This document shows, one piece after another, positions 17,048-50,370 of a stretch of DNA of 64,000 nucleotides (positions are counted from its first letter, which is position 1; each line of letters begins with the position of its first letter). The stretch is taken from assembly GCF_900176005.1 (NCBI RefSeq), contig NZ_LT838272.1, positions 578,501 to 642,500 of the forward strand, given 5' to 3'. The DNA comes from Thermanaeromonas toyohensis ToBE (GTDB lineage Bacteria; Bacillota; DSM-521; Neomoorellales; Neomoorellaceae). The notes under the pieces are model-generated. The model was given only the letters and a program-made list of their open reading frames with translations. It did no database searches and was not told where the DNA came from. The translations under genes were made by a program, and so were the position numbers.

Positions 17048-18427
17048 ATGGGTATCCTTATAAAAGATGGGTGGATTTTGACTTGGAACGGAAAGAAAGC
17101 AGAATTTAAGCGGGGATACGTCTGGGTGGAAGGGAATCTTATTAAGGAGGTAAAAGTAGATGAAGGGGAAAGACAAGATAACGGACGTCAAAAGGTGTTA
17201 GAGCAACAATGTTCTCTAGTAATAGATGCTAAAAACTGTGCTGTTCTCCCGGGGTTTATAAACGCCCACTCCCACCTCTTCCAGACCTATATAAGGGGGC
17301 TCGCCGATGATAAGCCTCTCTTTATGTGGCTTAAGACAGCCGTCTGGCCTTTGGCCTTAAATATGACCGAAGAGGATTTCTACCTTGCAGCTTTAATAGG
17401 GTGCCTAGAAAACTTAAAATGTGGTTCCACCACCGTAATAGATATGCATTATGTACATACCGTTAAGGCCAGCTCCGATATGGTATTGCAAGCCATGCGA
17501 GATGCAGGTATACGGGGGTACTTATGCCGTACCTCGGCGGACCAGAATTACCACCCGCCGCTTATGGAAGATAAAGATACGGTATTTAAAGAAATGGACC
17601 GGTTACTATCCAAATGGCAGAGAGAGACCGGAGGACGCCTAAACGTGGCCTTAGGGTTACTTAATCCCTGGGCCTGTTCGTCAGAACTGGTGAGGACGGC
17701 TGCAGAATATGCCCGGAATAATGATATTTTCATTCAAATCCATGTAGCAGAAAGCGAGGCGGTGGTACAAAAAACAATTGAAAAGTATGGCCAGCGCAAT
17801 GTGGACTGGCTAAAAGCGCAGGGGCTTTTAGGGGAGAATATACAATACGTGCACGGGGTTTGGCTGGAAGATGATGAACTGGAAGTATTGTCTCAAAGCG
17901 GAGTATCCTTGGTCCACTGCCCTATAGCCAACATGTATCTAGCCTCTGGGGCGGCCCGGGTTACCGACTGGCTTAAGAAAGATATCAATGTGGCCCTGGC
18001 CACCGATGGTCCGGGGAGTAACAACAGCCAGGATATGCTGGAAGTTCTCAAATTTACGGCTTGCCTGCAGAAACTCCGCACCATGGATGCCGCAGCTATT
18101 TCTTGCGACGAGGTACTATGCATGGCCACCCAAGGAGGTGCCCGGGCTTTAGGGAGAGAAGACTTAGGAGTATTGCGGGAAGGGGCTAAGGCCGATATTA
18201 TAACCGTGCGCCTCGACCGCCCCCATATTTCACCTGTGCACCGCATAGAGTCGGCCCTAATATACAACGCCAACGGAGGTGATGTGGACACTGTCTTGGT
18301 AGACGGTAGAGTGGTAGTATGGAAAGGCCGTTCTACTTTGGTGGACGAGGAAGAGATTTGGGAAAAAGCCCAGAAAAGGGCGCAGACCTTAAGAAGAAAA
18401 CTTTATGAAGGGAGTCAAGGGGTATGA
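17048..18427 (+). CDS. Amidohydrolase, AtzA/TrzA type, second copy
   Basis: 459 residues from ATG 17048, chosen because GAGAGGATGAGGG precedes it; an ATG 19 codons upstream has no good ribosome-binding site and gives a non-family start. Ligands are visible: His74 and His76 (NAHSH), IHVAES, YVHGVWL and ATDGPGSNNS. It is similar throughout to the enzyme at 5129 and is probably a deaminase for a different ring or nucleoside. Its stop overlaps the start of the broken BMP gene 3 by 4 bp (ATGA), which suggests they were once one operon of binding protein and deaminase. Confidence 0.8.
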   Translation: MGILIKDGWILTWNGKKAEFKRGYVWVEGNLIKEVKVDEGERQDNGRQKVLEQQCSLVIDAKNCAVLPGFINAHSHLFQTYIRGLADDKPLFMWLKTAVWPLALNMTEEDFYLAALIGCLENLKCGSTTVIDMHYVHTVKASSDMVLQAMRDAGIRGYLCRTSADQNYHPPLMEDKDTVFKEMDRLLSKWQRETGGRLNVALGLLNPWACSSELVRTAAEYARNNDIFIQIHVAESEAVVQKTIEKYGQRNVDWLKAQGLLGENIQYVHGVWLEDDELEVLSQSGVSLVHCPIANMYLASGAARVTDWLKKDINVALATDGPGSNNSQDMLEVLKFTACLQKLRTMDAAAISCDEVLCMATQGGARALGREDLGVLREGAKADIITVRLDRPHISPVHRIESALIYNANGGDVDTVLVDGRVVVWKGRSTLVDEEEIWEKAQKRAQTLRRKLYEGSQGV

Positions 18428-19351
18428 AAAAATGGATGGCGTTTTTTTTAACTTTAACTTTGCTGGCCGTATTGGTAGGTTGTGGATCTAAACCCCAACC
18501 TGGTAGCAGCGATACGGGGGTCGAGGCTTCTCCCAGCGGTGAGGCTAAAGGAGGGAAGAAACAGCTTAAAATAGCCCTTCTCCTTCCGGGACCTATAAAT
18601 GATATGGGCTGGAACGCTTCGGCCTATGAGGGGTTAAAACAGGCAGAGAAGAAATATGGGGCTTCCGTAGCCTATGTAGAAAATGTGGCCCAGTCGGATA
18701 TGGAAGAAAATTTCAGGGGTTTCGCCCTACAAGGATATGATTTAATCATAGGCCACGGGTTCCAGTTTGGCGATGCGGCTAAGAAAGTGGCCTCCCAGTT
18801 TCCTAAAGCTAAATTTGTAGTAACCAGCAGCAATATATCCCAGCCTCCCAACGTAGCTTCTGTGAATATAGATAACGAGATGCAAGGATTTATAATGGGT
18901 GCTATAGCCGCCCTCATGAGCAAATCAAAAGTAGTGGGCAATTTCAACGATATTAATAAAGCTAAAGAGATGGCTTTAGCCATGATAGCCCAGGGGGCAG
19001 ATAATTATAATGGCCAATGCTAATCAGGCCGGACTTGGCTCTATCCAGGCTTGCAGAGAGAAGAAAATCTTGGCTATAGGTAGCAATATGGATCAGAACC
19101 CCGTAGCTCCAGATACAGTATTGGTTAGCGTTATAAAGAGTGTTCCTGTTTTAATTTTTCATGTAGTAGATCTTATTTATAACAACAAATTTGAGCCCAA
19201 ATTTTACAATCTAGGCGTAAAAGAAGGGGCCATATATCTTTCACCCTGGCATGGATTTGAGAATAAGGTTCCCCAGGAAGTTAAGGACAGGATAGCTAGG
19301 ATTATGAAAGATCTGGAGGAAGGCAAATTAGATATCCGTCAATACAAATAG
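18424..19351 (+). pseudogene. BMP-family lipoprotein 3, broken by a frameshift and an internal deletion
   Basis: The 5' frame (18424-19023) has signal, lipobox LVGC and LLPGPINDMGWN. The 3' frame (19010-19351) carries MANANQAGLGSI through to the C terminus. The frames join exactly if one A is removed from the AA at 19003-19004, restoring GAD-II-MANANQ. In addition, against paralogues 1 and 2, about 36 residues are missing between SKSKVVG and NFNDINKAKE, the part that normally reads GG-x-IPP through the TGSFED region. Two independent lesions make a functional binding protein unlikely. Codon use otherwise looks normal, so decay is recent. A sequencing error could explain the frameshift but not the deletion. 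Confidence 0.82.
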
Positions 19352-19453
19352 AATGCGCAATTATGGAGGTATATTCTTGTTTCATGGCTAACCTATTTTG
19401 GCTTTTGCGCCTTCAAAGGGCAAGACACTTCTCCTAGAAAATGGACTGAAGTC

Positions 19454-19492
19454 GGGCCAGGCCTATTAAAGGCTTGCCCCAAAGTCTGGCCT
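19454..19492 (+). terminator. Possible stem-loop downstream of the BMP pseudogene
   Basis: GGCCAG (19455-19460) can pair with CTGGCC (19486-19491), followed by TTTAAAT; alternatively GGGCCAGGCCT pairs with AGGCTTGCCCC with one mismatch. Only moderately terminator-like. Confidence 0.35.
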
Positions 19493-19525
19493 TTAAATAA
19501 AGAATGAGCAGGAGGAATTTATAAA

Positions 19526-20839
19526 ATGGCGGTTGTTCTGGGGGGGTTTCTTATTCCTTCGGTTACCCGGGGGGCCCTGCGAGAATGGGGAATACGCATA
19601 AAGGGTGGAGAGGTCCAGGAAGTAAAATCTAACGAAGAACTACTGCAAAACCTTAATGGAGAAGAAGTATACGATTTTCGCGATTGTATTATAATTCCTG
19701 GCTTTATAAACGGGCATATGCATATGTATGGCGTCCTTTCCCACGGTATCGAAGTCCCGGTAACCCTTACGGGCTTTAAAAGTTTTCTAGATGATTTCTG
19801 GTGGCCCATGATCGAAAACCGGCTAGATCACGAAATGATCGCAGCTTCTACGGCTTGGGCTTGCTTAGAGATGCTGCGTTCTGGTATTACCACCTTTTGC
19901 GATATCCTGGAAGCGCCCAATGCTATACCAGGGGCTCTTCTGATGGAAAAAGAAGTGGTGGAGAAGGCCGGCCTTAGAGGAATTCTCTCCTTTGAAGCTT
20001 GCGAGCGCGTAAATACAGAAAATGGCGAGTTGGGGCTAGAAGAAAATGCACGGTTGATTAGGGAAAGTTCCGGCGGGTTAGTAACAGGCTTGTTAAGCGT
20101 GCATACCACTTTCACTTGCTCTCCTACCTTCCTTAAAAAAGCGGATGAGATGGCCCGTGAGCTAGGCGCCATGTTCCATATGCATCTTTCGGAGAGCAGC
20201 TATGAACCCCAGTATTGCCTGGAGACCTACGGGAAGCGGCCGGTAGAAGTGTACAGGGACCTAGGTATTCTAGGCCCCCATGTGCTGGCTTCCCAGGGAG
20301 TTGATTTAAGCCCGGGAGAAATAGAACTCTTAAGCCAATATAAAGTAAACTTGGTGCATATGCCCCTTTCCAACTGTGAGGTAGGAGGAGGGATCGCCCC
20401 TGTTCCCCAGCTTTTAGAACGCGGGGTAACTGTGGGCCTAGGAACCGACGGCTATATAAACAACTTTTTTGAGGTTATGCGGGGAGCTTTTCTTTTACAT
20501 AAGGCAGCCCAGAAGAACCCGGCGGTAATGCCAGCGCGGGCGGTCCTGGCCATGGCTACGGAAATGGGTGCCCGGGCGTTAGGAAGACCGGAACTGGGAC
20601 GCCTGGAAATCGGTTGTAAGGCCGACCTGGTGGCCATCTCCGCTGATACTCCCACACCAATAAATGAAAAGAATATCTTCGACCAGCTCGTTCTTTATCG
20701 CAATCCAGAAAACATTAGAGCGGTTATGGTGGGAGGCCGGCTGGTGGTGGTTGAGGGCCGAGTTCTGTCTTTAAATGAAGATAAAGTTAAAGAGGACTTA
20801 AAGAAGGCCACCTTAAAACTTTGGGGTTTCCCCCTCTAA
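19526..20839 (+). CDS. Amidohydrolase, SsnA/AtzA-related, with an altered metal site
   Basis: 437 residues. The superfamily barrel is clear: HMH (His64, His66), HLSES (His220, Glu223) and GTDG (Asp308). The strand-6 histidine found in its relatives (VHCVY at 5129, YVHGVW at 17048) is replaced by Gln257 in LASQGVDL. The FWW text near residue 91 recalls SsnA. The start ATG follows GCAGGAGGAATTT. It is likely a deaminase or hydrolase of the purine pathway, but the missing ligand makes either a changed mechanism or a different metal geometry possible. It lies 33 bp ahead of the fused hydroxylase gene, as ssnA lies near xdhD elsewhere. Confidence 0.75.
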   Translation: MAVVLGGFLIPSVTRGALREWGIRIKGGEVQEVKSNEELLQNLNGEEVYDFRDCIIIPGFINGHMHMYGVLSHGIEVPVTLTGFKSFLDDFWWPMIENRLDHEMIAASTAWACLEMLRSGITTFCDILEAPNAIPGALLMEKEVVEKAGLRGILSFEACERVNTENGELGLEENARLIRESSGGLVTGLLSVHTTFTCSPTFLKKADEMARELGAMFHMHLSESSYEPQYCLETYGKRPVEVYRDLGILGPHVLASQGVDLSPGEIELLSQYKVNLVHMPLSNCEVGGGIAPVPQLLERGVTVGLGTDGYINNFFEVMRGAFLLHKAAQKNPAVMPARAVLAMATEMGARALGRPELGRLEIGCKADLVAISADTPTPINEKNIFDQLVLYRNPENIRAVMVGGRLVVVEGRVLSLNEDKVKEDLKKATLKLWGFPL

Positions 20840-31328: not shown

Positions 31329-32660
31329 GTGGATTTAAGGGAATTCTTGGATAAGCTTAAGGCTAAAGGCCAATTGGTAGAAATTGAGCGTCCGGTGAGC
31401 ATTAAATTCGAGTTGGCTAACGTGATCAATACTATGCTACAAGAAGGAGCGCCTGTTGGCCTATTTAAAAATATCGATCATCCCTCAGGTATACCTATTG
31501 TTGGTGGTCTTTTAGCTCATACAGAGAGGATAGCCATCGCTTTAGAGTGCGAGGTGAAGGATATAAATGCCAAGATAGAGAGGGCCTTAGTTAATCTTAT
31601 AGATCCTATAGTGGTGGACCGGCCCCTATTCCGGCAGAACGAATTGTTGGGTGAGGAGGTAGATCTAACCCAGCAACTACCCATCCCCCACCATAACCCC
31701 GGGGATGGGGGGCCTTATATAACAGCGGGGATAGTCATTGCCCGGGACCCGGTAACTGGTCGCCATAACTATTCTTATAATCGCTTGCACCTTAAAGGGC
31801 CGCGAAAATTGGCAGTCATGATGAACGAATGGAGGCATATAGCCTGGTTTTACCGGGAAGCTGAAAAACGCGGCCAGCCCTTGGAAGTAGCCATAGCCAT
31901 AGGGGTAGATCCTGTAGTAGAGATCGCAGCAGGCTTCAGGATAGAAGAGGATGAAGCGAAACTGGCTGGCGCCTTACGGGGTCATCCTTTAGAGATCAGC
32001 CGCTGCCGGACTGTAGATATTTATGTGCCCCAGAAGGCTGAAATAGTAATCGAAGGACGTATCCCCCCCCATTACCGGGAAGAAGAGGGGCCCTTGGCTG
32101 AATTTACCGGTCATTTTGGGGAAGTTTACCAGCACCCGGTGGTAGAGGTTACAGCTTTATGCTACCGTCACCAACCCATTTACCGGACTATTGTACCGGG
32201 TTCTTTTGAACACGTCTATATTGGCAATGTTTTACCTCGAGAACCCATGCTTTTCCGTTTCTGCCGCCATGTATCCCCTAATGTACAGAATGTACACCTC
32301 TTACCCTGTACGGGCGGGTTTATGGCTGTAATTGCTCTGGATAAACAAAACCAGGGAGAACCTAAAAACGTAGCCCTGGCTGCCCTCATGACCCATGTAA
32401 ATATTAAGATGGCTATTGTGGTAGATACAGATGTTAATATCTACGATCCGAGCGAGGTACTCTGGGCTTTAGCTACCCGGGTAGATGCGGCGCGGGATGT
32501 TTTCCATATCCCCTATGCCCAGGGTATGGAAAACGATCCTACTACTAATGCTGAAGGCACCCATACTAAAGTGGGGATTGACGCCACCTTAGATCTGGCT
32601 TTACGCAAAGACTACAAGCGAGTGATCTATCCCAAGGTCAACTTGAAGGAGTATGTGTAG
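31329..32660 (+). CDS. UbiD-family decarboxylase
   Basis: 443 residues from GTG 31329, preceded by AGGAGGAGAAGGAGAG. UbiD-family text is clear: LREFLDKL at the start, IPHHNPGDGGPYITAG, YNRLHLKGPRK, GEYQHP-like GEVYQHP and the late MENDPTTNAEGTHTKVGIDAT. The family uses prenylated FMN to add or remove a carboxyl group on unsaturated or aromatic acids, including heterocyclic carboxylates. No UbiX prenyltransferase gene is in the window. Directly downstream of transport system 2, so its substrate may be the imported heterocyclic acid; this is inference. Confidence 0.87.
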   Translation: MDLREFLDKLKAKGQLVEIERPVSIKFELANVINTMLQEGAPVGLFKNIDHPSGIPIVGGLLAHTERIAIALECEVKDINAKIERALVNLIDPIVVDRPLFRQNELLGEEVDLTQQLPIPHHNPGDGGPYITAGIVIARDPVTGRHNYSYNRLHLKGPRKLAVMMNEWRHIAWFYREAEKRGQPLEVAIAIGVDPVVEIAAGFRIEEDEAKLAGALRGHPLEISRCRTVDIYVPQKAEIVIEGRIPPHYREEEGPLAEFTGHFGEVYQHPVVEVTALCYRHQPIYRTIVPGSFEHVYIGNVLPREPMLFRFCRHVSPNVQNVHLLPCTGGFMAVIALDKQNQGEPKNVALAALMTHVNIKMAIVVDTDVNIYDPSEVLWALATRVDAARDVFHIPYAQGMENDPTTNAEGTHTKVGIDATLDLALRKDYKRVIYPKVNLKEYV

Positions 32661-32726: not shown

Positions 32727-33659
32727 GTGAAGGGGGTATATTATCTTTTGGAAGCTTTAAGCTTTAAGCTACAAAATCTCAAATATTGCTTGGCCTTCCG
32801 GAATGAAGCGCTTCTTAAAGAAATAGAAGAGAAATGTGCTTTTTCTACCCCGCCTAAAGTAGAAAAAGTCTTAGGTTCCCTCCTTTTCCCCTGTCCTTCT
32901 GATAAGAGGCCCTATATTTATGGGTGTATGGTCCTATCGGCGGACGGTAAAATGGCTTTCCTGGATAATCCAGCAGGCCATTTGATTTCAGCGGGAAATC
33001 GCATAGATAAAGAAGGGGCCTTGACCGATTATTGGATCTTAAATGTATGCCGTGCTTATGCTGATGCTGTAATTTTAGGCGCGGGAACCTTAAAAGTACC
33101 AAGGAAATGGACAGCCAAAATAGCGGATCCAGAACTGGTGGAGGCGCGCCGGACTATACTAAATAAACAGGAAGATTATCCTTATCCTTTAATAGCTACC
33201 CTTGATGGCACTGATCTTCCCCTCGAACATGAAATCTTTTCTTCTTACCCTTCAGTAGGTATTATTACTTCCCCTTGGGGGGCGGAATGGCTTAAAGAAC
33301 GGCTGGGTAGGGATTGTACCCTTATCTCTTCGGATGGGGAATTTAAAGAAAAGAAAGCCCGGGTAAAGATTTTTACCCGGGGAGAGGGGAAGGTTCCCGC
33401 TACTTCTGAGATAATGAAGCTTTTGCGCCAGGTGGGGATAGAGTACCTCTTGGTGGAAGCCCCTAGTTATATCTGGCATTTAATAGAAGAGAAGCTGCTG
33501 GATGAATTTTTCCTAACCTATTCTTGTGTATATGTTGGAGGTGAATACGGGCTAGGCCGGACCCGGCCCTTTACTACCAGTGACCATCCCCATAGCGTAC
33601 TTTTAACTTTAGGATACCACCAAGGTTTTATATATACGCGTCAGAAATTGATTTACTAA
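32727..33659 (+). CDS. RibD C-terminal/dihydrofolate reductase-like protein
   Basis: 310 residues from GTG 32727 (TTG 32748, 11 bases after AAGGGGG, is an alternative start). Residues from about 62 on resemble the RibD reductase domain: YIYGCMVLSADGKMAF, AYADAVILGAGTL and EAPSYIWHLIEEKLLDEFFLTYS. The first 60 residues are an extension I do not recognise; the family is usually near 220-240 residues. The domain uses NADPH to reduce pyrimidine- or pterin-like compounds. Next to the UbiD gene, an NADPH-dependent step on a heterocycle is likely but unproven. Confidence 0.65.
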   Translation: MKGVYYLLEALSFKLQNLKYCLAFRNEALLKEIEEKCAFSTPPKVEKVLGSLLFPCPSDKRPYIYGCMVLSADGKMAFLDNPAGHLISAGNRIDKEGALTDYWILNVCRAYADAVILGAGTLKVPRKWTAKIADPELVEARRTILNKQEDYPYPLIATLDGTDLPLEHEIFSSYPSVGIITSPWGAEWLKERLGRDCTLISSDGEFKEKKARVKIFTRGEGKVPATSEIMKLLRQVGIEYLLVEAPSYIWHLIEEKLLDEFFLTYSCVYVGGEYGLGRTRPFTTSDHPHSVLLTLGYHQGFIYTRQKLIY

Positions 33660-39913: not shown

Positions 39914-40200
39914 GATTTCCCTCCTTGAGAGTAATGTTTTAAAAAATGTTCTATATTTGTTACATTCTTTAGGAGTGTAGAGGATCCTTCTTTTATCTAT
40001 GGCTTGTTTTTAAGTAAATTGTACGAGTTAGTCAGCAGGAGATTTAAGGCTTGTACTAGAGTAATAACCCTTTTTATTTGCGCATTTTGTTCATATTTTC
40101 CCTTTACTAGTTTACTTACTTAAAGCTAAAATTAAAGCAGATGCAGTATATACCGGTCTATGCAGGTCTAGACTACAAGGTAAAAGGTAGGAGGTAAGTT
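39914..40200. other. Divergent intergenic region between BMP 5 and gntR
   Basis: 287 bp, AT-rich, with no coding potential; it must hold promoters in both directions. A GntR-type operator candidate is at its right end (40165-40174). Confidence 0.6.
40165..40174 (+). promoter_or_regulatory. GntR/HutC-type operator candidate (GGTCTAGACT)
   Basis: GTCTAGAC (40166-40173) is a perfect 8-bp palindrome; the GGTCTAGAC core is like operators known for HutC-subfamily regulators such as NagR/DasR. A second GGTCTA half is at 40155-40160. It lies 27 bp ahead of the gntR start, as expected for autoregulation. Confidence 0.5.
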
Positions 40201-40950
40201 GTGGTTAATAATAAAGTAGAAGGTCCTGTACCTGCTTATTTTCAAATAATGCAAGATCTCCAACAGCAGATCTTAAATGGCATTTTAAAACCTGATGACC
40301 GGGTACCTTCGGAGACTACATTGGCTAAAATTTATGGTGTTAGCCGTATGACGGCCCGCCATGCTTTGACGGAATTAGTAAACCAGGGGTATCTTTATCG
40401 AGTATACGGGAAAGGAACTTTTGTTTCTCGTCCCAAAATTGAGCGTAGCTATGCGCCCTTAACCGGATTTATGGAGGATATGCGGGAGCGAGGGTTGCGC
40501 CCCTCTTCTAAGCTATTGAGTTTAGAACAAGTTTTACCTGATCCTGAACTACGTAATAAATTAAAACTTCCTGTAAATGCTAAGGTATATCAAATTGCAC
40601 GATTGCGCTATGCTAACGCTGAGCCCATCGTTATCCAGATTTCTCGGATACCTCAGTATTTATGTCCGGGATTAGAAGAAGTAGATTTGGAAAATAGCTC
40701 TTTATATTTTGTGTTAGAAAAGCGTTATGGGATTCGCCTTTATCGTGCTGTGCAGCGGTTAGAGGCTACGCAAGCTACTCCAGAACAAGCGAAGCTATTG
40801 GAGATCCCCCGACATAGCCCTCTTCTTTATGTCCACCGTTTAAGCTTTCTTGCTGATGATACACCGGTTGAGTTTGTGGAATCCTGGTATAGAAGCGATC
40901 GTTATGCTTTTGAAGTAACCCTGTATAAAGACTGGGCGGGTAGGCGATAA
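40201..40950 (+). CDS. GntR-family (HutC subfamily) transcriptional regulator
   Basis: 249 residues from GTG 40201, preceded by GTAGGAGG. Residues ~10-78 are a winged helix (RVPSETTLAKIYGVSRMTARHALTELVNQGYLYRVYGKGTFV), and residues ~95-240 a UTRA ligand domain (SRIPQYLCPGLEE, ATPEQAKLLEI, VEFVESWYRSDRY). UTRA domains sense small metabolites such as phosphosugars or amino-acid breakdown products. It heads an operon of two flavoproteins, transport system 3 and sugar-type enzymes and is presumed to repress it. Confidence 0.88.
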   Translation: MVNNKVEGPVPAYFQIMQDLQQQILNGILKPDDRVPSETTLAKIYGVSRMTARHALTELVNQGYLYRVYGKGTFVSRPKIERSYAPLTGFMEDMRERGLRPSSKLLSLEQVLPDPELRNKLKLPVNAKVYQIARLRYANAEPIVIQISRIPQYLCPGLEEVDLENSSLYFVLEKRYGIRLYRAVQRLEATQATPEQAKLLEIPRHSPLLYVHRLSFLADDTPVEFVESWYRSDRYAFEVTLYKDWAGRR

Positions 40951-40955
40951 GCTGA

Positions 40956-41555
40956 ATGGTTATTGATGTGATAGGGATAGTAGGTAGCCCTCGTAAAAAA
41001 GCTAATACAGATCTTTTGGTAGAAAAAGCCTTAGAAGGAGTAAAGGCAACAGGGTTACAGGTGCAGAAGTTTTATTTGAATGACATGGAAATTAAGCCAT
41101 GTCAGTATTGCAACTATTGCCGTAAACATGGGAGTTGTTATATAAAGGATGATATGAACATTTTATATTCTGCTATTGAACAAAGCCGAGGTTTAATATT
41201 GGGTACTCCTACTTTTTACGGTGATATCTCTGCTCAAACCAAGCTTTTTATCGACCGGTGTTACCGGTATGTGGAAATAATTAAGAAAGAAGATGGAGGC
41301 TTTCTATTTTCTAGCCGGCTTCCAGGAAAGCGGTTGGGCATGATGATAGGGGTAACGGGTAGTTTTGGACCTGAAACTTTTAATAAGCAAATTGAAGTAA
41401 TTCAACTCTTATTCAACGATCTAAATGCCGAATTCGCGGACCGGTTGCTATATACGGGTACCGATTTTTTGCCAGTAAGGGATAATCCGGACATTTTGTC
41501 TTTGGCTTGGGATAAGGGTGTGGCATTGGGGCAAAGGATAAAAAATTCTCTATAA
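40956..41555 (+). CDS. Iron-sulfur flavoprotein, divergent copy
   Basis: 199 residues starting 5 bp after gntR. FMN loop GIVGSPRKKANTD, cluster C49-x2-C52-x2-C55-x5-C61, then GTPTFYGDISAQTKLFIDR, which is closer to the general NADPH-dependent FMN reductase family than to the other three copies. Electron partner unknown. Confidence 0.75.
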   Translation: MVIDVIGIVGSPRKKANTDLLVEKALEGVKATGLQVQKFYLNDMEIKPCQYCNYCRKHGSCYIKDDMNILYSAIEQSRGLILGTPTFYGDISAQTKLFIDRCYRYVEIIKKEDGGFLFSSRLPGKRLGMMIGVTGSFGPETFNKQIEVIQLLFNDLNAEFADRLLYTGTDFLPVRDNPDILSLAWDKGVALGQRIKNSL

Positions 41556-41623
41556 AAATCTTAAAGAACTTAAGCAAAAAGGTTTATAAGAGCAAAGGGT
41601 AATTTAAGGAGAGATAAGCTAAT

Positions 41624-42262
41624 ATGGTGTGGATACTAGGATTATGCGCTAGCCCTCGGGTAGCTGCTACTGATTTTTGTGTGCAAGAGGCTTTAAAGGC
41701 TGCTCGAGAAGTAGGAGAGATTGAGACAGAATATATTTCCTTGCGAGGAAAAGAAATCAAACCCTGCCTTCACTGCGATAAATGTTTGGACACGGGCCTT
41801 TGTATTCATAAGGATGATGCCCTTCCTATCATCGAAGCCTTTTTTAGAGCAGATGGGATCATTATCGGTTCCCCTGTTTATGATATGAATATACCCGCCC
41901 AACTAGCTGCCCTTTTTAATCGTTTTCGTATGCGTTTTGTTGAAGTATGCGATCGTAGCCCGCGAGCTTTAGAGTATAAAGTTGCAGGTGCTATAGCTGT
42001 GGGAGGTAGTCGCAATGGAGGCCAGGAGATCGTCCTAGGAGCCATCCTTAACTTCTGCTTGGCAGAAGGGATGATTGTGGTAGGGGGAGAAAAATTCCAG
42101 AATCATGGGGCTGCTGTTTGGTCCCAAGATAGAAAAAGAGCTGGCGCAGAGGAGGATGAGATAGGGTTAGCAGCGGTTAGGGCTGTAGGACGCCGGGTGG
42201 CCAAGGTAGCTTCGTTGATTGTAGCTTCTAAAGAAATCTGGATAGAAAAAAGGCGGGGGTGA
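41624..42262 (+). CDS. Iron-sulfur flavoprotein, third close copy
   Basis: 212 residues; GLCASPRVAATD replaces the usual GSPRKGATE, so the FMN loop is slightly altered. Cluster C48-x2-C51-x2-C54-x5-C60, GSPVYDMNIPAQLAALFNRFR and VGGSRNGGQE match the copies at 1659 and 23684. It is separated by a purine-rich 126-bp stretch from BMP gene 6. Confidence 0.78.
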   Translation: MVWILGLCASPRVAATDFCVQEALKAAREVGEIETEYISLRGKEIKPCLHCDKCLDTGLCIHKDDALPIIEAFFRADGIIIGSPVYDMNIPAQLAALFNRFRMRFVEVCDRSPRALEYKVAGAIAVGGSRNGGQEIVLGAILNFCLAEGMIVVGGEKFQNHGAAVWSQDRKRAGAEEDEIGLAAVRAVGRRVAKVASLIVASKEIWIEKRRG

Positions 42263-42388
42263 TGTAAAAGGGGAGAAAGGTAGAGAATTTAAAAAGGAGA
42301 ATTTAAGCGTAGGAGGCAAGATAAGGAAAAGGGGAAAAATCTCAAAAACAAGATTTAGTCTTAAAAAATTAAGGAGGGCATAGAAAGG

Positions 42389-43414
42389 ATGGCGGGTGGC
42401 AAAATAGGGAAGTTATTGATAGGGGTGTTAGTTACATGCTTGATTTTAGGGCTAGCGGCCTGCGGAGGGAAAAAAGAAAGCACAAGTGGACAGGGGCAAA
42501 CTACACAGGAAAGCAAACAGGGAGAGAAAAGATTTAAAGTAGCTTTGTTACTTCCAGGTTCTATAAATGATGGAGGTTGGAGCCAGAGCGCTTATGAAGG
42601 TTTGATGGAAGTAAAGAGCAACCTAGGAGCTGAGGTAGCTTACACCGAAAATGTAAAGAAAAACGATCAGGTCCAGATAATGCGCGAGTACGCCCGGAAA
42701 GGGTACGATGTTATCTTAGGTCACGGTTTTGAGTTTTCCGATGCCTTAAAACAGGTTTCCAGTGAGTATCCCAATGTAAAATTTGCTGGTATTGGAACTA
42801 AGGTAACTGGACCTAATCTAGCCTCCTTACAGTTTAAGTACGGAGAGCTGGGGTACCTAGCTGGTATAGTAGCGGGACGGTGCACTAAGGCTAACAAGAT
42901 AGGGTGGGTCACCGCTACTAAAGATCCTACAGGGCAAATGGAGTTAGTCAACCTAGAAGAAGCGGCCAAAAAAGTAAATCCTCAGGTATCTGTGACCGCT
43001 GCTTATACGGGAAGCTGGGAAGATATTAATAAAGCTAAAGAAGCAGCTTTAGCGCAGATTGCCAATGGAATCGATGTTATCGTTACCAACCATGACGCGG
43101 GTAATTTAAGCGTTATCCAGGCTGCTAAAGAGAAAAACATCATGGTCATAGGGTGGACCGGTGATTATTGTGATCTGGCCCCGGATAATGTGTTGACTAG
43201 TATGGTACAGAAAGTTTCTTCCCTCATCTTTATGGGTGTAAAAGAGTTTAAAGAGGGTAAGTTTGAAGGTAAGATTTACCAGTTTGGCTTAAAAGACAAA
43301 GTTCAATATGTAGGTAAGTATGGTAACAAAGTAACGGAAGAAGTAAAGAATGAGGTAGCTAAAGCTACTGAAGATATAATTTCCGGCAAGATCCAGCTAA
43401 AAGGTAGCCTATAA
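42389..43414 (+). CDS. BMP-family substrate-binding lipoprotein 6 (system 3)
   Basis: 341 residues; AAGGAGGG lies 11 bases upstream of ATG 42389. Lipobox LAAC; then LLPGSINDGGWSQSAYEG, which differs from the usual PGPINDxGWN by Ser for Pro and WS for WN, and LGHGFEF. These changes near the binding pocket point to a different ligand, consistent with sugar-type enzymes downstream. Heads transport system 3. Confidence 0.87.
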   Translation: MAGGKIGKLLIGVLVTCLILGLAACGGKKESTSGQGQTTQESKQGEKRFKVALLLPGSINDGGWSQSAYEGLMEVKSNLGAEVAYTENVKKNDQVQIMREYARKGYDVILGHGFEFSDALKQVSSEYPNVKFAGIGTKVTGPNLASLQFKYGELGYLAGIVAGRCTKANKIGWVTATKDPTGQMELVNLEEAAKKVNPQVSVTAAYTGSWEDINKAKEAALAQIANGIDVIVTNHDAGNLSVIQAAKEKNIMVIGWTGDYCDLAPDNVLTSMVQKVSSLIFMGVKEFKEGKFEGKIYQFGLKDKVQYVGKYGNKVTEEVKNEVAKATEDIISGKIQLKGSL

Positions 43415-43425
43415 GGAAAAGGAAA

Positions 43426-43448
43426 GGGCGGGAGAGCTCCTCCCGCCC
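43426..43448 (+). other. Strong hairpin between BMP gene 6 and its ATPase gene
   Basis: GGGCGGGAG (43426-43434) pairs perfectly with CTCCCGCCC (43440-43448), 5-nt loop. No T-run follows, so it more likely protects the upstream mRNA or pauses transcription than terminates. Confidence 0.7.
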
Positions 43449-43481
43449 ATAAACTGAAAACCCGGAGGGGACTGTTTCTTC

Positions 43482-45002
43482 ATGCCTGTTCTTCTGGAAC
43501 TCCGTGGCATATGTAAATCATTTCCGGGAGTAAAAGCCAATGACAATGTGAACTTACAAGTAGCTGCAGGTGAAATCCATGCCTTATTAGGGGAGAATGG
43601 GGCAGGCAAAACAACCCTTATGAACTGTATCTACGGTCTTTATACCCCTGATGCAGGCCAGATCTTTTGGGAAGGCCGGGAAGTTAAGATTAATTCTATC
43701 CGGGATGCTATAAATTTGGGTATTGGCATGGTGCACCAGCATTTCATGCTAGTGCATAATTTTACGGTTTTAGAAAATATCATGCTCGGCTTGCCTTCTA
43801 GGAGGGAGCCTTTTTTAGATAAGGCTAAGGTGGCCAGGGAAGTTAAGGAATTGATGGAAGCTTACGGGCTCTATGTAGATCTTGATGCCCAAATATGGCA
43901 GCTGCCAGTAGGGCTACAGCAAAGGGTGGAGATCCTCAAGGCTTTATACCGGAAGGCCCGGTTATTGATTTTGGATGAACCCACAGCGGTTTTAACACCT
44001 GGTGAAGTTAAGGAGCTCTTTCACATTTTACGCCAATTAGTAGCCCAAGGATATGCGGTAATTTTTATAACCCATAAATTAGATGAAGTTATGGCCATTG
44101 CTGACCGGATAACAGTATTAAGGGATGGCAAAGTAGTTAAAACTTTGGAAGCTAAAGCAGCTGACAAAAAAATGCTAGCGCGGCTCATGGTCGGCCGGGA
44201 GATCGCTTACGAAAAACCTAAAACCTCAGCTACCCCTGGAGAAGAGGTCTTAAGGGTTGAAAATTTGCAGGCCTTAGATAATAAGGGACTGCCAGCTTTA
44301 AGAGGTGTTTCTTTCACCATCCGGCGCGGAGAGATTTTGGGGATCGCTGGAGTAGCAGGGAACGGTCAAACAGAACTGGCGGAAGTTTTAACGGGGCTAC
44401 GTCAGGCCACGGGAGGCAAGGTGTTTTTTAAAGGGCAAGAAATCACCAACTGGACTCCCCGGGCTTTATACGAATTGAATATCGCTCATATCCCTGAAGA
44501 CAGGCAACGCGTAGGACTTATCATGGACTTTTCGGTAAAGGAAAACACCCTTTTGGGTGTGTATTATCGTTGGCCTTTTGCTAAAGGTATCCAGATGAAC
44601 CACTCTGTTATACGAGAGCATGCCGCAAAACTTATCCAGGAATATGGCATCCGCACCCCGGGACCAGAAGCCAAAGTGCGGTTTCTTTCGGGTGGTAATC
44701 AGCAGAAGCTCATTTTAGCCCGGGAGCTCTCACGGAAACCTGGACTTTTAATTGCAGTTCAACCTACTAGAGGACTGGATATCAGTGCTACAGAGTTTGT
44801 CCACCAACAGATACTGCTTCAACGGGAACAAGGGACAGCTATACTTTATATCTCTACCGAGCTAGATGAGATTATGAAGTTAAGCGACCGTATTGCTGTA
44901 TTTTATAAAGGAGAAATCATGGGTATTTTAGAGCCTCATAAAACCGATATAGAGACCCTGGGGCTTCTGATGGCGGGGGCCCAACGTTTGGAAACAAATT
45001 AA
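43482..45002 (+). CDS. BMP-type ABC transporter ATP-binding protein, system 3
   Basis: 506 residues; ATG 43482, AACCCGGAGGGG upstream. First domain GENGAGKTT, LPVGLQQ (a variant signature) and LLILDEPT; second domain GVAGNGQTE, LSGGNQQ, IAVQPTRG. Same layout as systems 1 and 2. Permease genes follow 12 bp later. Confidence 0.88.
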   Translation: MPVLLELRGICKSFPGVKANDNVNLQVAAGEIHALLGENGAGKTTLMNCIYGLYTPDAGQIFWEGREVKINSIRDAINLGIGMVHQHFMLVHNFTVLENIMLGLPSRREPFLDKAKVAREVKELMEAYGLYVDLDAQIWQLPVGLQQRVEILKALYRKARLLILDEPTAVLTPGEVKELFHILRQLVAQGYAVIFITHKLDEVMAIADRITVLRDGKVVKTLEAKAADKKMLARLMVGREIAYEKPKTSATPGEEVLRVENLQALDNKGLPALRGVSFTIRRGEILGIAGVAGNGQTELAEVLTGLRQATGGKVFFKGQEITNWTPRALYELNIAHIPEDRQRVGLIMDFSVKENTLLGVYYRWPFAKGIQMNHSVIREHAAKLIQEYGIRTPGPEAKVRFLSGGNQQKLILARELSRKPGLLIAVQPTRGLDISATEFVHQQILLQREQGTAILYISTELDEIMKLSDRIAVFYKGEIMGILEPHKTDIETLGLLMAGAQRLETN

Positions 45003-45014
45003 AGGAGGACAAGG

Positions 45015-46094
45015 ATGCCGGACAAACTATTGGGCTGGGTTAAAGTTTTCCAGCGGGAAGGTTTAAGCGGCATTTTAACTCCAGTTTTTGGTATCATTTT
45101 TGGTTTAGCAGTAGCCGCGATAGTTATTATCCAGCAAGGAGTAAGCCCTTTAGAGGCCTATAGGGAGTTATTTTTAGGGGCCTTTGGTGATTTAGGAAGT
45201 TTTACCTTTACCCTCTTGCGCTTTATACCTTTGGCTTTCACGGGTCTAGCTGTTACGCTGGCGTACCGGGGTGGAGTTTTTAATATCGGCGCAGAGGGCC
45301 AACTCTATGTAGCAGCCCTAGCCTCTACCTGGGTGGGGATATACCCGCTACATGGGCCAGCCTTTATACACGTATTTTTGGCTCTGCTCGCTGGTATGAT
45401 AGCGGGTGCCTTCTGGGCTTTTATACCAGGTTATCTTAAGGCTACGCGCGGGATCAATGAAATTTTGACTACCATTTTAATGAATTACGTGGCTATAAAT
45501 CTTGTAGGTTTAGCAGTCAATACTTTTCTTATGGAACCTGGGCAAAGCGCTCCCCAGAGCCCTCCTATACTTGATAGCGCAAGACTTCCCATTATTCTAC
45601 CTGGCACTTTTCTCCACGCAGGGTTCCTGTTGGTTTTTATTTTAGCTTGGTTAGTGTACTGGGTCTTATGGCATACCACCTGGGGGTATGAGATCCGGAG
45701 CGTGGGGGCCAACAGGGAGGCAGCCTGTTACGGGGGAATCAATGTAAAACGAGTTATGATATTGACCATGACTGCTAGTGGTGCCTTAGCTTCTTTGGCT
45801 GGAAGCTCAGAGATCCTGGGGGTACAGTATCGGTTGCTAGAAAATTTTATGGTAGGTTATGGTTATGATGCTATTGCTATAGCCTTGCTGGGAGGTTTGC
45901 ATCCTTTAGGGACTCTAGTAGCGGCCCTCTTCTTCGGGGCTTTACGTAATGGTGCTAACTCTATGCAGATTGCTGTAGGTGTACCCGTATCTATAGTGTA
46001 TGTGATACAAGCTCTGGCAGTTTTAAGCATTATAGCAACGGTTGCTGTCCGCAATATATACTTCCGGCAGACCTTTAAAAAGGAGGAGAGGTAA
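45015..46094 (+). CDS. ABC transporter permease, BMP-type system 3, first subunit
   Basis: 359 residues with about nine or ten membrane segments; VFNIGAEGQLYVAAL and GINEILTTILMNYV are the family motifs. AAAGGAGGACAAGG precedes the ATG. Immediately followed by the second permease gene. Confidence 0.87.
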   Translation: MPDKLLGWVKVFQREGLSGILTPVFGIIFGLAVAAIVIIQQGVSPLEAYRELFLGAFGDLGSFTFTLLRFIPLAFTGLAVTLAYRGGVFNIGAEGQLYVAALASTWVGIYPLHGPAFIHVFLALLAGMIAGAFWAFIPGYLKATRGINEILTTILMNYVAINLVGLAVNTFLMEPGQSAPQSPPILDSARLPIILPGTFLHAGFLLVFILAWLVYWVLWHTTWGYEIRSVGANREAACYGGINVKRVMILTMTASGALASLAGSSEILGVQYRLLENFMVGYGYDAIAIALLGGLHPLGTLVAALFFGALRNGANSMQIAVGVPVSIVYVIQALAVLSIIATVAVRNIYFRQTFKKEER

Positions 46095-47036
46095 TTGGAA
46101 AATATTTGGGCAATAGTTGGTAATATTGATTTTTTGGTAGCTAGCCTACGCATGGCCACTCCTCTTTTGTTGGCTGCTACAGGAGATATTTTCTCTGAAC
46201 GAACTGGCGTGCTTAATATCGCTTTGGAGTCCATGATGTTAATAGGAGCCTTTGGGTCCTTTATTTTCGCCTATTATTTTGGGAATCCCTATGTAGGGAT
46301 ACTAGCAGCCGTTGCATTGGGAGCTCTCATGGGATTAAACCACGCTTTTTTTACTGTAACTTTACGCTGCGATCAGGTAGTTACGGCGGTGGGAGAAAAT
46401 ATCTTTGCTTTAGGTGTCACCAGCACCCTTTACCGCATTCTCCTAGGTGCTACTCCTATCCAGCCTGAAGCGCCCGGCTTACCGGTATTACGCATTCCTT
46501 GGCTTAGCCAGATCCCTGGGGTAGGAAGCCTTCTCTTTAACCAGAATATCTTGGTGTATCTAGCTTTAATCATGGTTCCTATCACCTATATAATCTTATT
46601 TCATACAACTTGGGGATTGAAAATCCGGGCCGTGGGGGAACATCCGCGGGCAGCTGATACCATGGGTATAAATGTATATTTAACCCGTTATATATGTGTT
46701 GTTATAAGCAGTATTATGGCTTCCTTGGGTGGAGCGGCTCTTACGGTGGGCGGTTTGAGATATTTTATGGATAATATGACTGCAGGGAGGGGTTTTATCG
46801 CCTTTTCAGCGGTGATCTTCGGCCGCTACAATCCTTGGGGAACCTTTGTAGCTACCGCGCTTTTTGGTATAACCGATGCTTTTCAATTGAGGATGCAAGC
46901 TATGGGCTTTAGCGTGCCTTACCATATATTCTTAATGCTTCCCTACGTGGTCACCTTGTTAGTTTTAGTGTCTGTAATAGGCTCCACAGTTGCGCCCCGT
47001 TCCCAAGGGATACCTTATATTCGGGAGGAACGGTAG
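46095..47036 (+). CDS. ABC transporter permease, BMP-type system 3, second subunit
   Basis: 313 residues from TTG 46095, which directly follows the stop of the previous gene, with AAAGGAGGAGAGG upstream. GVLNIALESMMLIG and AVGEHPRAADTMGIN are typical. Multi-span membrane protein. Confidence 0.87.
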   Translation: MENIWAIVGNIDFLVASLRMATPLLLAATGDIFSERTGVLNIALESMMLIGAFGSFIFAYYFGNPYVGILAAVALGALMGLNHAFFTVTLRCDQVVTAVGENIFALGVTSTLYRILLGATPIQPEAPGLPVLRIPWLSQIPGVGSLLFNQNILVYLALIMVPITYIILFHTTWGLKIRAVGEHPRAADTMGINVYLTRYICVVISSIMASLGGAALTVGGLRYFMDNMTAGRGFIAFSAVIFGRYNPWGTFVATALFGITDAFQLRMQAMGFSVPYHIFLMLPYVVTLLVLVSVIGSTVAPRSQGIPYIREER

Positions 47037-47077
47037 AAAGGGAAAAGGGATGAAAGAGTTTTAAGGGGGTTAAATAC

Positions 47078-47866
47078 ATGAGCAATATAGGTAAAGTACG
47101 CCGGTTAAAGCGGCTGTTTCGCCCAGATGGACGTACATTTATTGTAGCTATGGACCACGGCACCAATGCAGGACCCCTTCCGGGGTTAGAAAGACCGGGG
47201 GAAACTTTGACTAAAATAGCTGCTAGCGGTGCTGATGCTGTAATTGTCAATTATGGTGTAGCCCGAGAATTTGCCCGTGAATTAGCTAGCTTAGGTTTAA
47301 TTCTACGCCTTGATATACCTCCGACGGTGCTCGGACAGGGGTGTGCAAGTCACCTAGTATATGGGGTAGAAGAAGCTTTGCGCCTGGGCGCCGATGCAGT
47401 GATTGTAAACGCTGGTCCAGGTGTGGGAGTAGAAGAGGTTACTTTACCCCAGCTAGCCCAAATAGCTCGTCAATGTGATGCCTGGGGTATACCTCTTATA
47501 GGAGAGATTTCCCCTGGAGGTTTCGACAGTGATCCGGCTTTGCGCACATTAAAAAACATACAGCTTGGTGCCCGAATCGCCTGCGAATTAGGGGTAGATG
47601 CTATAAAAACTATTTACCACCCTGGGTTTGAAGCGGTGGTGAAAAACTGTTTTGTACCCATAGTAGTGCTAGGAGGGGCCAGGGTAAGCGATGATGTAAC
47701 CTTTCTAGCCTCTATTAAAAGCGCCTTGGAAGAAGGGGCCGCAGGGGTAGCTATAGGGCGAAACGTTTGGGGACATCCACAGCCAGAAAAGATGGCGCGA
47801 GCCCTCGAGGCTCTTATCCATAAAGGGGCAACTTTGGGAGAAGCTAAAGCTATATTACAGGGTTAA
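47078..47866 (+). CDS. DeoC/FbaB/LsrF-family class I aldolase-like protein
   Basis: 262 residues. AMDHG (24-28), GADAVIVNYG, a phosphate-type site VLGGARVSD and Lys177 in DAIKTIYHPG, the Schiff-base lysine of this family. Members include archaeal-type fructose-bisphosphate aldolase, the hept-6-ulosonate synthase and LsrF thiolase. With the kinase at 48925 it probably cleaves a phosphorylated keto-sugar to C2/C3 units. ATG 47078 follows TTTTAAGGGGG. Confidence 0.8.
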   Translation: MSNIGKVRRLKRLFRPDGRTFIVAMDHGTNAGPLPGLERPGETLTKIAASGADAVIVNYGVAREFARELASLGLILRLDIPPTVLGQGCASHLVYGVEEALRLGADAVIVNAGPGVGVEEVTLPQLAQIARQCDAWGIPLIGEISPGGFDSDPALRTLKNIQLGARIACELGVDAIKTIYHPGFEAVVKNCFVPIVVLGGARVSDDVTFLASIKSALEEGAAGVAIGRNVWGHPQPEKMARALEALIHKGATLGEAKAILQG

Positions 47867-47874
47867 AGGAGAGG

Positions 47875-48906
47875 ATGCTGTTGCTCAGAGCAGTAATAAC
47901 GGGACCGGAGACTATCAAGCTAGAAGAAGTTCCTTTGAGAAAATTAGAACCTGATGAGGTCTTGGTAAAGGTAAGGGCTTGTGGCATCTGTACGTGGGAG
48001 CAGCGTTTTTTCCGTGGAGTAGAAAAAAGTTATCCTTTCCTTGGCGGGCATGAGATTTCTGGGGAGGTGGTAGAGGTAGGCCCCCGCGTGGCCGAGAGGT
48101 TAAAAATAGGGCAGAAAGTAGCTGTAGCCCGGCTTACCCGGTGCGGCGAATGCTATTTCTGCCGCCGGGGGATGGATCATATGTGCGCTAATGCGGGAAA
48201 TGATCCTACACCTGGTAATTATTGGGGGCCGGCCGGTTTTGCTGAGTATTTAATTGCTAAAGGATATGAAATTTATCCCTTAGCGGATAGGGTCGACTTT
48301 ACCCATGCCACATTATCCGAACCTTTAGCTTGTGTTATACGGAGTATAGGCAGAAGCGACTTACGGTTAGGGGATACAGCAGTAGTTTTAGGGGCAGGAG
48401 TTATGGGTCTTTTGCATCTTAAACTAGCCAGACTTAAAGGTGCCCAGGTTATTGTAAGCGAGCCAGATAGTGAGCGAAGAGAAAAAGCTCTCCAGCTTGG
48501 AGCTACAGCTGCGATAGATCCTTTTAAGGAAGATATTATTTCTATTGTTAAAGATTTAACTGCGGGCCGGGGTGTCGAAGCTGTATTTTTTACAGGTGGA
48601 GGAACTCCCGCTTTAACCCAAGGGATAAAACTTCTCGCTAAAGGTGGCACTTTGGTAATATATGGTTCTGTCTATCCTCCTAATCCCTTAGAAGTAAATC
48701 CTAATGATCTGCATTACAACGAATTTATCCTCACAGGGGCTATAAGGCACGATAGAGAGAGCTTCCGCCAGGCTACTGCCCTGTTATCCGAAGGGTTAGT
48801 GGAGGTAGAAGACTTGATCAGCGCTCAGATTCCATTTAAAGAGATTGAAAAAGCTTTTAGATTAGCTATTGAACCGGGTACTTACCGGGTAGTGTTAACC
48901 TTCTAA
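47875..48906 (+). CDS. Zinc-dependent medium-chain alcohol/polyol dehydrogenase
   Basis: 343 residues. Catalytic zinc residues in ACGICTWEQ and GGHEISGEV, structural zinc cysteines in CGECYFCRRGMDHMC, and Rossmann motif VVLGAGVMGLLHL. Sorbitol- or threonine-dehydrogenase-like; converts a polyol or secondary alcohol to the ketone with NAD(P). TTAAAGGAGAGG precedes ATG 47875, and the spacing to the aldolase gene is 8 bp. Confidence 0.85.
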   Translation: MLLLRAVITGPETIKLEEVPLRKLEPDEVLVKVRACGICTWEQRFFRGVEKSYPFLGGHEISGEVVEVGPRVAERLKIGQKVAVARLTRCGECYFCRRGMDHMCANAGNDPTPGNYWGPAGFAEYLIAKGYEIYPLADRVDFTHATLSEPLACVIRSIGRSDLRLGDTAVVLGAGVMGLLHLKLARLKGAQVIVSEPDSERREKALQLGATAAIDPFKEDIISIVKDLTAGRGVEAVFFTGGGTPALTQGIKLLAKGGTLVIYGSVYPPNPLEVNPNDLHYNEFILTGAIRHDRESFRQATALLSEGLVEVEDLISAQIPFKEIEKAFRLAIEPGTYRVVLTF

Positions 48907-48924
48907 TAGAAGTGGTGATCAAAA

Positions 48925-50370
48925 TTGTCCCTTCTATTGGGAGTGGATATAGGCACCTTAGGGACTAAAGCGGTGTTAGCAGATGAAACGGGATGTATTC
49001 TGGCTTCCGGGCAAATCCAACATAGCATAAGTTATCCTCATCCGGGATGGGCAGAACAAGATCCAGAGAAAGAATGGTGGGGTGAGTTTGTGGTCTTGGT
49101 GCGGGAGGTATTAACCAAGGCTAATGTCACCCCATCAGCAATTATAGGTATAAGTATAACGGGACTGGTCCCTACCCTTTGTGTGCTGGACAGGGAGGGG
49201 CGTAGCTTAAGGCCAGCTATTCTGCATTGCGATAACCGGGCCACCGCTGAGTTAAAAGAGTTGCTAGAAAATTATGGGCTAGAAATAACTTTAGAGCAAG
49301 TCTTACCTAAGCTGTTATGGCTTAAAAAACATGAACCAGATATTTATAAAAAGGCCCATGTTATCTTAAATCCCCATAGCTATATCGTCTACCGGTTAAC
49401 TGGTCGGAAAACAACAGACTTTGATACTGCCAATATTTTTGGAGGAATTTTTGATGCTAGTAGTATGACCTGGAAAGAAAAATTATGTGTTGATTTAGGT
49501 ATCAACCCTAGTTTATTGCCCGAACCACTTCCTGGTACAGCTATTGCTGGTGGTGTGTTACCAGAGGCAGCTCATCTTACAGGCCTAGCTCCAGGTACCC
49601 CAGTAATTGTGGGTACAGGAGACTCTTTCGTTACTCTTTTGTCAGCTGGGGTTACACAACCTGGGGAAATGATGATTTATCTAGGTACGGCAGGGACAGC
49701 TATTTTAGTCCGGCGGCCTTTAGTTGAAGTAGCTAGCACTTTGCATATCAGTAATAGACCCTCAGCAGTAGAGTTTTGTGCCAATATCTTAACCTGCGGG
49801 CAAGCCCTTAATTGGTATAAAAATAATTTCTTTCCTGAAACTCCAGAGCAGGAATTTTTTAAGTTAGTAGAAACCCAAGCCAGATCTCTTCCTCCTGCTG
49901 CTCAAGGCCTTTATTTTTTACCCCATCTTATGGGTCGACGCTTACCTTACCCTCAGCCTTTGGCCCGGGGGACCCTTTTTGGCCTGACACCTGCTCACCA
50001 CCGTTACCATATTTTTCGGGCTCTATTGGAAGGTATAGCTTATGAATTTAAATGTGGATACCTCAAGGTAAAAGAAGAAGTGCGACGGATAGTAGTAACT
50101 GGTGGCGGTGCCTACAGCTCCCTATGGCGGCAGATTATAAGTGATGTGCTAGACAAAGAGATATACTCTCCCCTCCATCATAATACAGCTTTAGGGGCCG
50201 CTTACTTTACAGGGTATTCTTTAGGCCTGTTTACCGATTTTCATAAAATGCGGGAACAATGGAATCCGGTTAAGGATCACCATAAGCCCCAACTCCAAGC
50301 TTCAGTATGTTATCGTAAAGCCTTTAATGTTTATCTAAAATTAAATCGTATTCTCCAGGAGCTTTATTAA
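48925..50370 (+). CDS. FGGY-family carbohydrate kinase
   Basis: 481 residues from TTG 48925; the ribosome-binding site is weak (AGAAGTGGTGA). N-terminal ATP-fold GVDIGTLGTKAVL, GISITGLVPT, LHCDNRAT, then GTGDSFVTLLSAG, YLGTAGT and RRIVVTGGGAYS. Xylulokinase-like, phosphorylates a keto-sugar or polyol. It completes a dehydrogenase-kinase-aldolase set behind transport system 3. Confidence 0.85.
   Translation: MSLLLGVDIGTLGTKAVLADETGCILASGQIQHSISYPHPGWAEQDPEKEWWGEFVVLVREVLTKANVTPSAIIGISITGLVPTLCVLDREGRSLRPAILHCDNRATAELKELLENYGLEITLEQVLPKLLWLKKHEPDIYKKAHVILNPHSYIVYRLTGRKTTDFDTANIFGGIFDASSMTWKEKLCVDLGINPSLLPEPLPGTAIAGGVLPEAAHLTGLAPGTPVIVGTGDSFVTLLSAGVTQPGEMMIYLGTAGTAILVRRPLVEVASTLHISNRPSAVEFCANILTCGQALNWYKNNFFPETPEQEFFKLVETQARSLPPAAQGLYFLPHLMGRRLPYPQPLARGTLFGLTPAHHRYHIFRALLEGIAYEFKCGYLKVKEEVRRIVVTGGGAYSSLWRQIISDVLDKEIYSPLHHNTALGAAYFTGYSLGLFTDFHKMREQWNPVKDHHKPQLQASVCYRKAFNVYLKLNRILQELY

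Follow-up and report, generated by a model that had tools for sequence, protein, structure and literature searches.

A ten-gene operon of Thermanaeromonas toyohensis that may import an N-heterocycle and cut off its polyol tail

What does an importer of the BMP/PnrA family bring into the cell when its genes are followed by those of an aldolase, a zinc dehydrogenase and an FGGY kinase? This question is raised by an operon of Thermanaeromonas toyohensis ToBE, which lies in a 64-kb stretch of DNA (the window, positions 578501-642500 of the 3.33 Mb single-contig genome) and consists of 10 genes running in one direction on the + strand (40201-50370, open reading frame coordinates within the window). 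Tentatively, we propose that the operon takes up an N-heterocycle whose tail is an open polyol (ribityl-like) or a sugar that can be opened, and that this tail is routed into glycolysis. The genes of the operon are as follows.

40201-40950, +, GntR/UTRA (HutC-type) regulator (Pfam GntR 64 bits, UTRA 153 bits)
40956-41555, +, Fl1, flavoprotein of the iron-sulfur type with the motif C-x2-C-x2-C-x5-C (FMN_red)
41624-42262, +, Fl2, flavoprotein with the motif type of Fl1 (FMN_red)
42389-43414, +, BMP6, substrate-binding lipoprotein of the BMP/PnrA family (Bmp, PF02608, 203.4 bits against a gathering score of 24.1)
43482-45002, +, ATP-binding cassette (ABC) ATPase with two nucleotide-binding domains (ABC_tran, two stretches)
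45015-46094, +, permease 1 (BPD_transp_2)
46095-47036, +, permease 2 (BPD_transp_2)
47078-47866, +, DeoC/DhnA-type class I aldolase with Lys177 and a phosphate site at GG199-200 and GRN227-229 (DeoC, PF01791, 95.2 bits against 23.8)
47875-48906, +, zinc dehydrogenase of the MDR type with the catalytic motif CTWEQ and a four-Cys structural zinc site (ADH_N, ADH_zinc_N)
48925-50370, +, FGGY kinase with GTGDS at 230 (FGGY_N, FGGY_C)

All ten products scored above the Pfam gathering scores of these families, and the gaps between the genes were, in order, 5, 68, 126, 67, 12, 0, 41, 8, and 18 nt. These results confirm the inventory given by an earlier sequence-only reading of this DNA, which had listed a GntR regulator, two flavoproteins, a BMP system, an aldolase, a dehydrogenase and an FGGY kinase in one direction with short gaps. 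Its labels "BMP system 3" and "BMP 6" apparently both refer to the BMP at 42389-43414.

Conservation of the operon was examined by an aldolase search over 149 genomes, which gave matches in 32; a copy at least 64% identical was present in six genomes, the window genome included. The order from BMP to dehydrogenase was kept in five of the six, the window genome among them, and in the sixth (G095) the locus lies at a contig end with the GntR, aldolase and dehydrogenase genes visible. All ten genes were found in G006 (67-84% identity) and G130 (50-70% identity), nine genes and a kinase remnant matching only the last 111 kinase codons in G014, and seven genes in G011, where the flavoproteins and the kinase are absent at the locus. 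G011 and G014 each carry a second module of LacI, aldolase, dehydrogenase, kinase and flavoprotein genes (51%, 49-50%, 45-46%, and 39-40% identity). Because the gene order recurs in these four other genomes, the arrangement is not due to chance, and the neighborhood conservation that the sequence-only reading had put forward as a check was obtained. Matches from a plasmid search were all below 60% identity.

The three enzymes suggest how a tail could be cut. Lys177, Gly199, Gly200, Gly227, and Arg228 were invariant in all 98 aligned aldolases (80 loci from a genome-contig scan, 16 from an earlier genome search, the fin locus of Muricomes intestini, and the window). The lysine named in the sequence-only reading was correct; the window aldolase shows both the PF01791 superfamily match and the Schiff-base lysine. 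The dehydrogenase retains both zinc-site motifs, with CTWEQ at the place of CGTD in the best-aligned solved threonine dehydrogenase. Scores against named families were below the cut-offs for xylulokinase (TIGR01312, 327.9 bits against 380.25), archaeal-type class I fructose-bisphosphate (FBP) aldolase (NF040816, 135.3 against 430) and L-threonine 3-dehydrogenase (TIGR00692, 172 against 458). The archaeal-type FBP aldolase and MJ0400 (2-amino-3,7-dideoxyheptulosonate synthase) share the fold family, the Schiff-base lysine and the GG and GRN phosphate site with the window aldolase but differ at the catalytic Tyr position, where the window aldolase has Ser aligned with Tyr146 of FBP aldolase, and the window aldolase scored under the cut-offs for both. 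The Tyr is replaced in most of the 98 aldolases, including FinC of the fin locus, and its loss was therefore rejected as a mark of the window clade described below. Gly113, present in 23 of 25 clade members and mostly replaced by bulky residues elsewhere, was also dropped as an argument, since FinC has Phe.

With the three-enzyme module conserved, and with a Schiff-base lysine and a phosphate site in its aldolase, the natural reading is a sugar or polyol part that is phosphorylated, oxidized and split in a retro-aldol reaction. To this extent the earlier suggestion of a sugar or polyol that is oxidized, phosphorylated and cleaved is supported, whereas its comparison with LsrK/LsrF or with pentulose pathways is not. 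We propose that BMP6 and its ABC partners, a family recognizable from sequence, would import the ligand and that the FGGY kinase would phosphorylate the terminal hydroxyl of the tail. The zinc dehydrogenase would then oxidize the neighboring secondary hydroxyl to a ketone, generating an end that resembles dihydroxyacetone phosphate (DHAP); phosphorylation would thus precede oxidation. With a Schiff base at Lys177 and the phosphate held at GG199-200 and GR227-228, the aldolase could release DHAP and a shortened, heterocycle-bearing aldehyde. The iron-sulfur flavoproteins may carry electrons, and the GntR regulator may sense the ligand or a product.

The ligand class was approached through the binding protein. 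An AlphaFold2 model of BMP6 (predicted local distance difference test score, 82) matched 14 solved BMP entries with Z scores of 29 to 34, in contrast to at most 22 for the best sugar-binding proteins and 20.8 for LsrB (1tm2). Ligands in the titles of the matched entries include guanosine, inosine, adenosine, thymidine, uridine, and riboflavin, and the fold comparison did not separate nucleoside from riboflavin binders (2hqb, 33.9; 7x0r, 33.8; 4iil, 29.7). In the structural alignment, BMP6 was 20 to 32% identical to the 14 members, which include the riboflavin and nucleoside importer type; RfuABCD, a riboflavin importer, and the nucleoside importers PnrA and Lbp likewise use a BMP-family binding protein. 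Because the model matches BMPs above sugar binders, the ligand is more likely to bear a ring than to be a bare sugar. The altered pocket motif (PGSIND, GWSQ) pointed out in the sequence-only reading is present in BMP6 and is unlike that of the other window BMPs; among orthologues, however, it is unstable (PGSASD/GWST in two, SGPVND/GWNQ in one), and the Trp in IGWTGD is a steadier mark.

Next, the gene neighborhoods of the aldolase family were compared. The window aldolase falls in a 34-row clade (SH-aLRT, the Shimodaira-Hasegawa-like approximate likelihood ratio test, 97) and, nested within it, in a 26-row clade (SH-aLRT 98). After removal of L066, a duplicate of L048, 97 rows were left (33 clade, 64 other), with a neighbor reach of 10.5 kb that is shortened by contig ends at many loci. 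Genes were recognized by BLAST against proteins of the window and its relatives, which favors close relatives. A gene for RibD_C, methenyltetrahydromethanopterin cyclohydrolase (MCH) or FolB was found near 17 of the 33 clade aldolases and near none of the 64 others; by gene, the clade counts were 8, 7, and 4 of 33, respectively, each against 0/64, and Pfam confirmed representatives of all three. Iron-sulfur flavoproteins showed the same contrast (20/33 versus 0/64), and the motif C-x2-C-x2-C-x(3-8)-C was present in 28 of 28 flavoproteins near family aldolases. As we read the tree, five of its lineages show the RibD_C link and about four the MCH link. CT-x-E is common to all readable dehydrogenases adjoining clade aldolases (7 of 33 loci gave no dehydrogenase match and L065 was not parsed) and to FinD. 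Genes of the 5'-nucleotidase type were seen at L062, L064, and L068. At L059 to L061, the aldolase-dehydrogenase-kinase module stands between two RibD_C genes and is accompanied by permease-looking proteins of 513 to 539 amino acids, two of which were tested without an NCBIfam match and one without a Pfam match.

A second line of evidence comes from genes that respond to riboflavin. Clostridium scindens converts riboflavin to lumichrome, for which it is called the first reported anaerobe, and on riboflavin it induces fin (flavin-induced) genes that include a RibF-type kinase, a class I aldolase and an alcohol dehydrogenase; M. intestini is named as another carrier (PMC12934955, preprint, February 2026). 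The M. intestini genome, reached from locus L060, has a second RibF-type gene and, 4 kb from it, a DeoC-family aldolase gene. This aldolase and its neighbor dehydrogenase are 37% (over 252 amino acids) and 40% (over 336 amino acids) identical to the window pair and stand in the same order, and flavokinase, GrdB and glycine-reductase (component-B reductase) domains were confirmed near the pair, which fits the fin description. The fin neighborhood thus shares with the window the aldolase followed by the dehydrogenase, the CT-x-EQ motif and an associated kinase gene. In contrast, the window operon has a BMP ABC importer and, in place of the RibF-type kinase, an FGGY kinase; it lacks genes for aldehyde dehydrogenase and glycine reductase, and its aldolase belongs to another subclade. 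The sole flavokinase gene of the window genome lies well away from the operon, at 1306236. Because M. intestini also carries the FGGY version (L060, aldolase 57% identical to that of the window), the two versions are distinct and not interchangeable.

Since the FGGY kinase occupies the place of the fin RibF-type kinase, riboflavin itself is probably not the ligand, but a related compound. The fin link and the RibD_C, MCH and FolB links make a plain sugar or a purine nucleoside less likely and favor a polyol-tailed compound whose ring resembles a pteridine, a flavin or a xanthine. The operon would best be placed in a tail-cutting pathway with two kinase variants, its own FGGY type and the RibF type that riboflavin induces. 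Applied to riboflavin 5'-phosphate, the proposed chemistry would give formylmethylflavin and, on reduction, hydroxyethylflavin, which is the product reported for F. fissicatena. In the sections of the preprint considered here, the fin authors do not state this formylmethylflavin and DHAP chemistry (PMC12934955). If it is true, it would explain the formation of hydroxyethylflavin without oxygen, and a family of pathways, one of them in this genome, is predicted for ring compounds that are so far not known to serve as carbon sources. The proposal also assigns a testable role to the MCH and FolB homologues of bacterial clusters with BMP importers. The anaerobic breakdown of vitamins and cofactors is barely charted.

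Several results weigh against the import and tail cutting of a ring compound. The window operon itself is without RibD_C, MCH and FolB, and MCH, found in 14 of the 149 genomes, is absent from the window genome. Rfam scans of the window and 19 related loci gave no ligand-pointing riboswitch and no FMN, purine or tetrahydrofolate riboswitch, the sole riboswitch being an M-box that lies at a distance from the module in L042. FinC groups with L096, L078, L049, and L050 (SH-aLRT 97), and the window aldolase is in another clade (SH-aLRT 97 to 98). The kinase is decayed in G014 and missing from the G011 operon, though both genomes retain a paralogous kinase. The p-values of the clade association overstate independence because the counted loci are related. 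Of the fin genes in C. scindens only the induction is known, and an overflow role or metabolic damage is considered by the authors (PMC12934955). Finally, aldolases of the wider family adjoin phosphotransferase system (PTS), CUT1 or ECF transporters, and the close clade members L062 and L064 stand with CUT1 sugar-type importers, so that the ligand could be a free polyol.

A free sugar or polyol is indeed a live alternative, although an unlikely one. Phosphorylation and oxidation would turn it into a ketose 1-phosphate, from which cleavage would yield DHAP and an aldehyde, and the BMP importer would have been recruited to a sugar-like ligand. Related aldolase-dehydrogenase pairs occur with mannose-family PTS genes (15/64 loci outside the clade, 1/33 inside) or CUT1 ABC genes (16/64 and 5/33), and further neighbors outside the clade are ECF (15/64) and ADP-ribosylglycohydrolase (13/64) genes. 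However, the binding protein is of the BMP type and not of a sugar type, the RibD_C, MCH, FolB and flavoprotein neighbors are specific to the clade, and homologues are induced by riboflavin.

The other live rival, which we consider quite unlikely, is that BMP6 imports an ordinary nucleoside whose base is removed elsewhere, leaving the freed pentose to the kinase, dehydrogenase and aldolase. Guanosine-bound Lbp (7x0r) is the closest solved structure to BMP6 by sequence, and the surroundings resemble a purine-breakdown region, with a YgeY equivalog at 435 and XDH-, SsnA-, and other amidohydrolase-like genes; among these, YgeY alone exceeds its equivalog cut-off. On the other hand, we noticed neither a nucleosidase nor a phosphorylase gene in the conserved arrays, for which no dedicated search was made, and the RibD_C and FolB-like neighbors are left unexplained. 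The known routes for nucleoside pentose need neither a dehydrogenase nor this aldolase.

An autoinducer-2 (Lsr-like) operon is highly improbable: lsr also combines an FGGY kinase, a DhnA-type aldolase and an ABC importer, but it is not known to include a dehydrogenase, the window aldolase and kinase are far under the LsrF (NF006081, 144.2 bits against 297) and LsrK (NF008187, 162.3 against 528) cut-offs, and the importer belongs to another family, BMP6 being closer to BMPs than to LsrB.

The MCH genes of other genomes were further analyzed. One MCH passed the NCBI equivalog cut-off for methenyltetrahydromethanopterin cyclohydrolase (234.7 versus 228.8). MCH regions contain BMP importers with varying sets of FolB, amidohydrolase, flavoprotein, aldehyde:ferredoxin oxidoreductase, RibD_C and acetoin-dehydrogenase-type genes, and a cluster of this kind is next to the second aldolase module of G011 and of G014. 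MCH of the BMP-cluster type accompanies a clade aldolase in 7 of the 8 genomes counted as having such an aldolase and occurs in 2 of the 141 others, where both sets (nine and eight genomes) were assigned by us from scores and contexts and several genomes are closely related. In a BMP tree of 32 rows (one duplicate and three partial or broken sequences left out), BMP6 and its orthologues form a group (bootstrap 87, SH-aLRT 99) with seven BMPs, each of which comes from an MCH-bearing cluster or module, and the four other intact window BMPs fall outside this group. MCH homologues were seen at L158 to L163, L166 to L169, and L171, often paired with a shorter MCH-like partner, and G095 has several copies. 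The FolB-like frames (L048, L046, L069, L167, L169, L171, and L121) have Gln where three aligned solved dihydroneopterin aldolases have Glu, in the segment LVE-SIA or LLE-TVA, and retain the Lys and Tyr regions. This Glu is the pterin anchor; Gln would suit a 2,4-dioxo ring (lumazine, xanthine), which bears on the relatives and not on the window operon.

A wider idea, which is speculative and improbable as a whole, is an anaerobic route, not reported before, that dismantles ribityl-bearing 2,4-dioxo heterocycles such as 6,7-dimethyl-8-ribityllumazine or deaminated pteridines. After BMP import, RibD_C, FolB-like and MCH-like proteins would act on the ring and an acetoin-dehydrogenase-type complex on a C4 fragment, while the FGGY kinase, CT-x-EQ dehydrogenase and DhnA aldolase would cut the tail to DHAP; the operon of the window genome would hold the import and tail-cutting part only. 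Literature searches within an open-licence scope, in which absence is weak evidence, gave nothing on point for purine degradation with methenyltetrahydromethanopterin cyclohydrolase (only work on halophilic archaea), pterin catabolism, MCH in Firmicutes or Moorella, the combination of cyclohydrolase, dihydroneopterin aldolase and BMP, that of FGGY, class I aldolase and polyol, or ribityllumazine degradation.

Two further features of the window, an operator-like site and a RibD_C gene, concern the regulator and the ring-type neighbors.

40146-40174, +, operator-like site directly 5' of the GntR gene, GTATATAC-N2-GTCTA then GGTCTAGAC
32727-33659, +, RibD_C-type reductase, encoded 13.4 kb upstream of the aldolase in another BMP operon (RibD_C, 32.4 bits against a cut-off of 24.1)

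GTATATAC occurs once in the window and, because the chance expectation is 0.74, is weak evidence taken alone. It is also found 5' of GntR in L041, L042, L045, L058, L059, and L061. The candidate operator GGTCTAGACC is valid for the window only and was set aside, GTATATAC being what the orthologues have in common. Promoter and terminator scans remained at chance level.

The RibD_C family flanks the aldolase module in relatives, and the window was not scored as RibD_C positive because its gene lies more than 10.5 kb away. Directly before this gene is a UbiD-family decarboxylase gene (31329-32660), and at L164 a similar RibD_C gene adjoins BMP transporter genes of 68 to 76% identity. The window also contains a broken BMP gene (18424-19530) with a 199-codon open frame, in-frame stops and a second Bmp-model fragment downstream. 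Elsewhere in the genome, a second, distant aldolase-dehydrogenase pair (30% and 29% identity; L051, G000:C1:192420-193142) neighbors ECF transporter, NAD-kinase-like and ADP-ribosylglycohydrolase genes, an arrangement that recurs in Chloroflexi.

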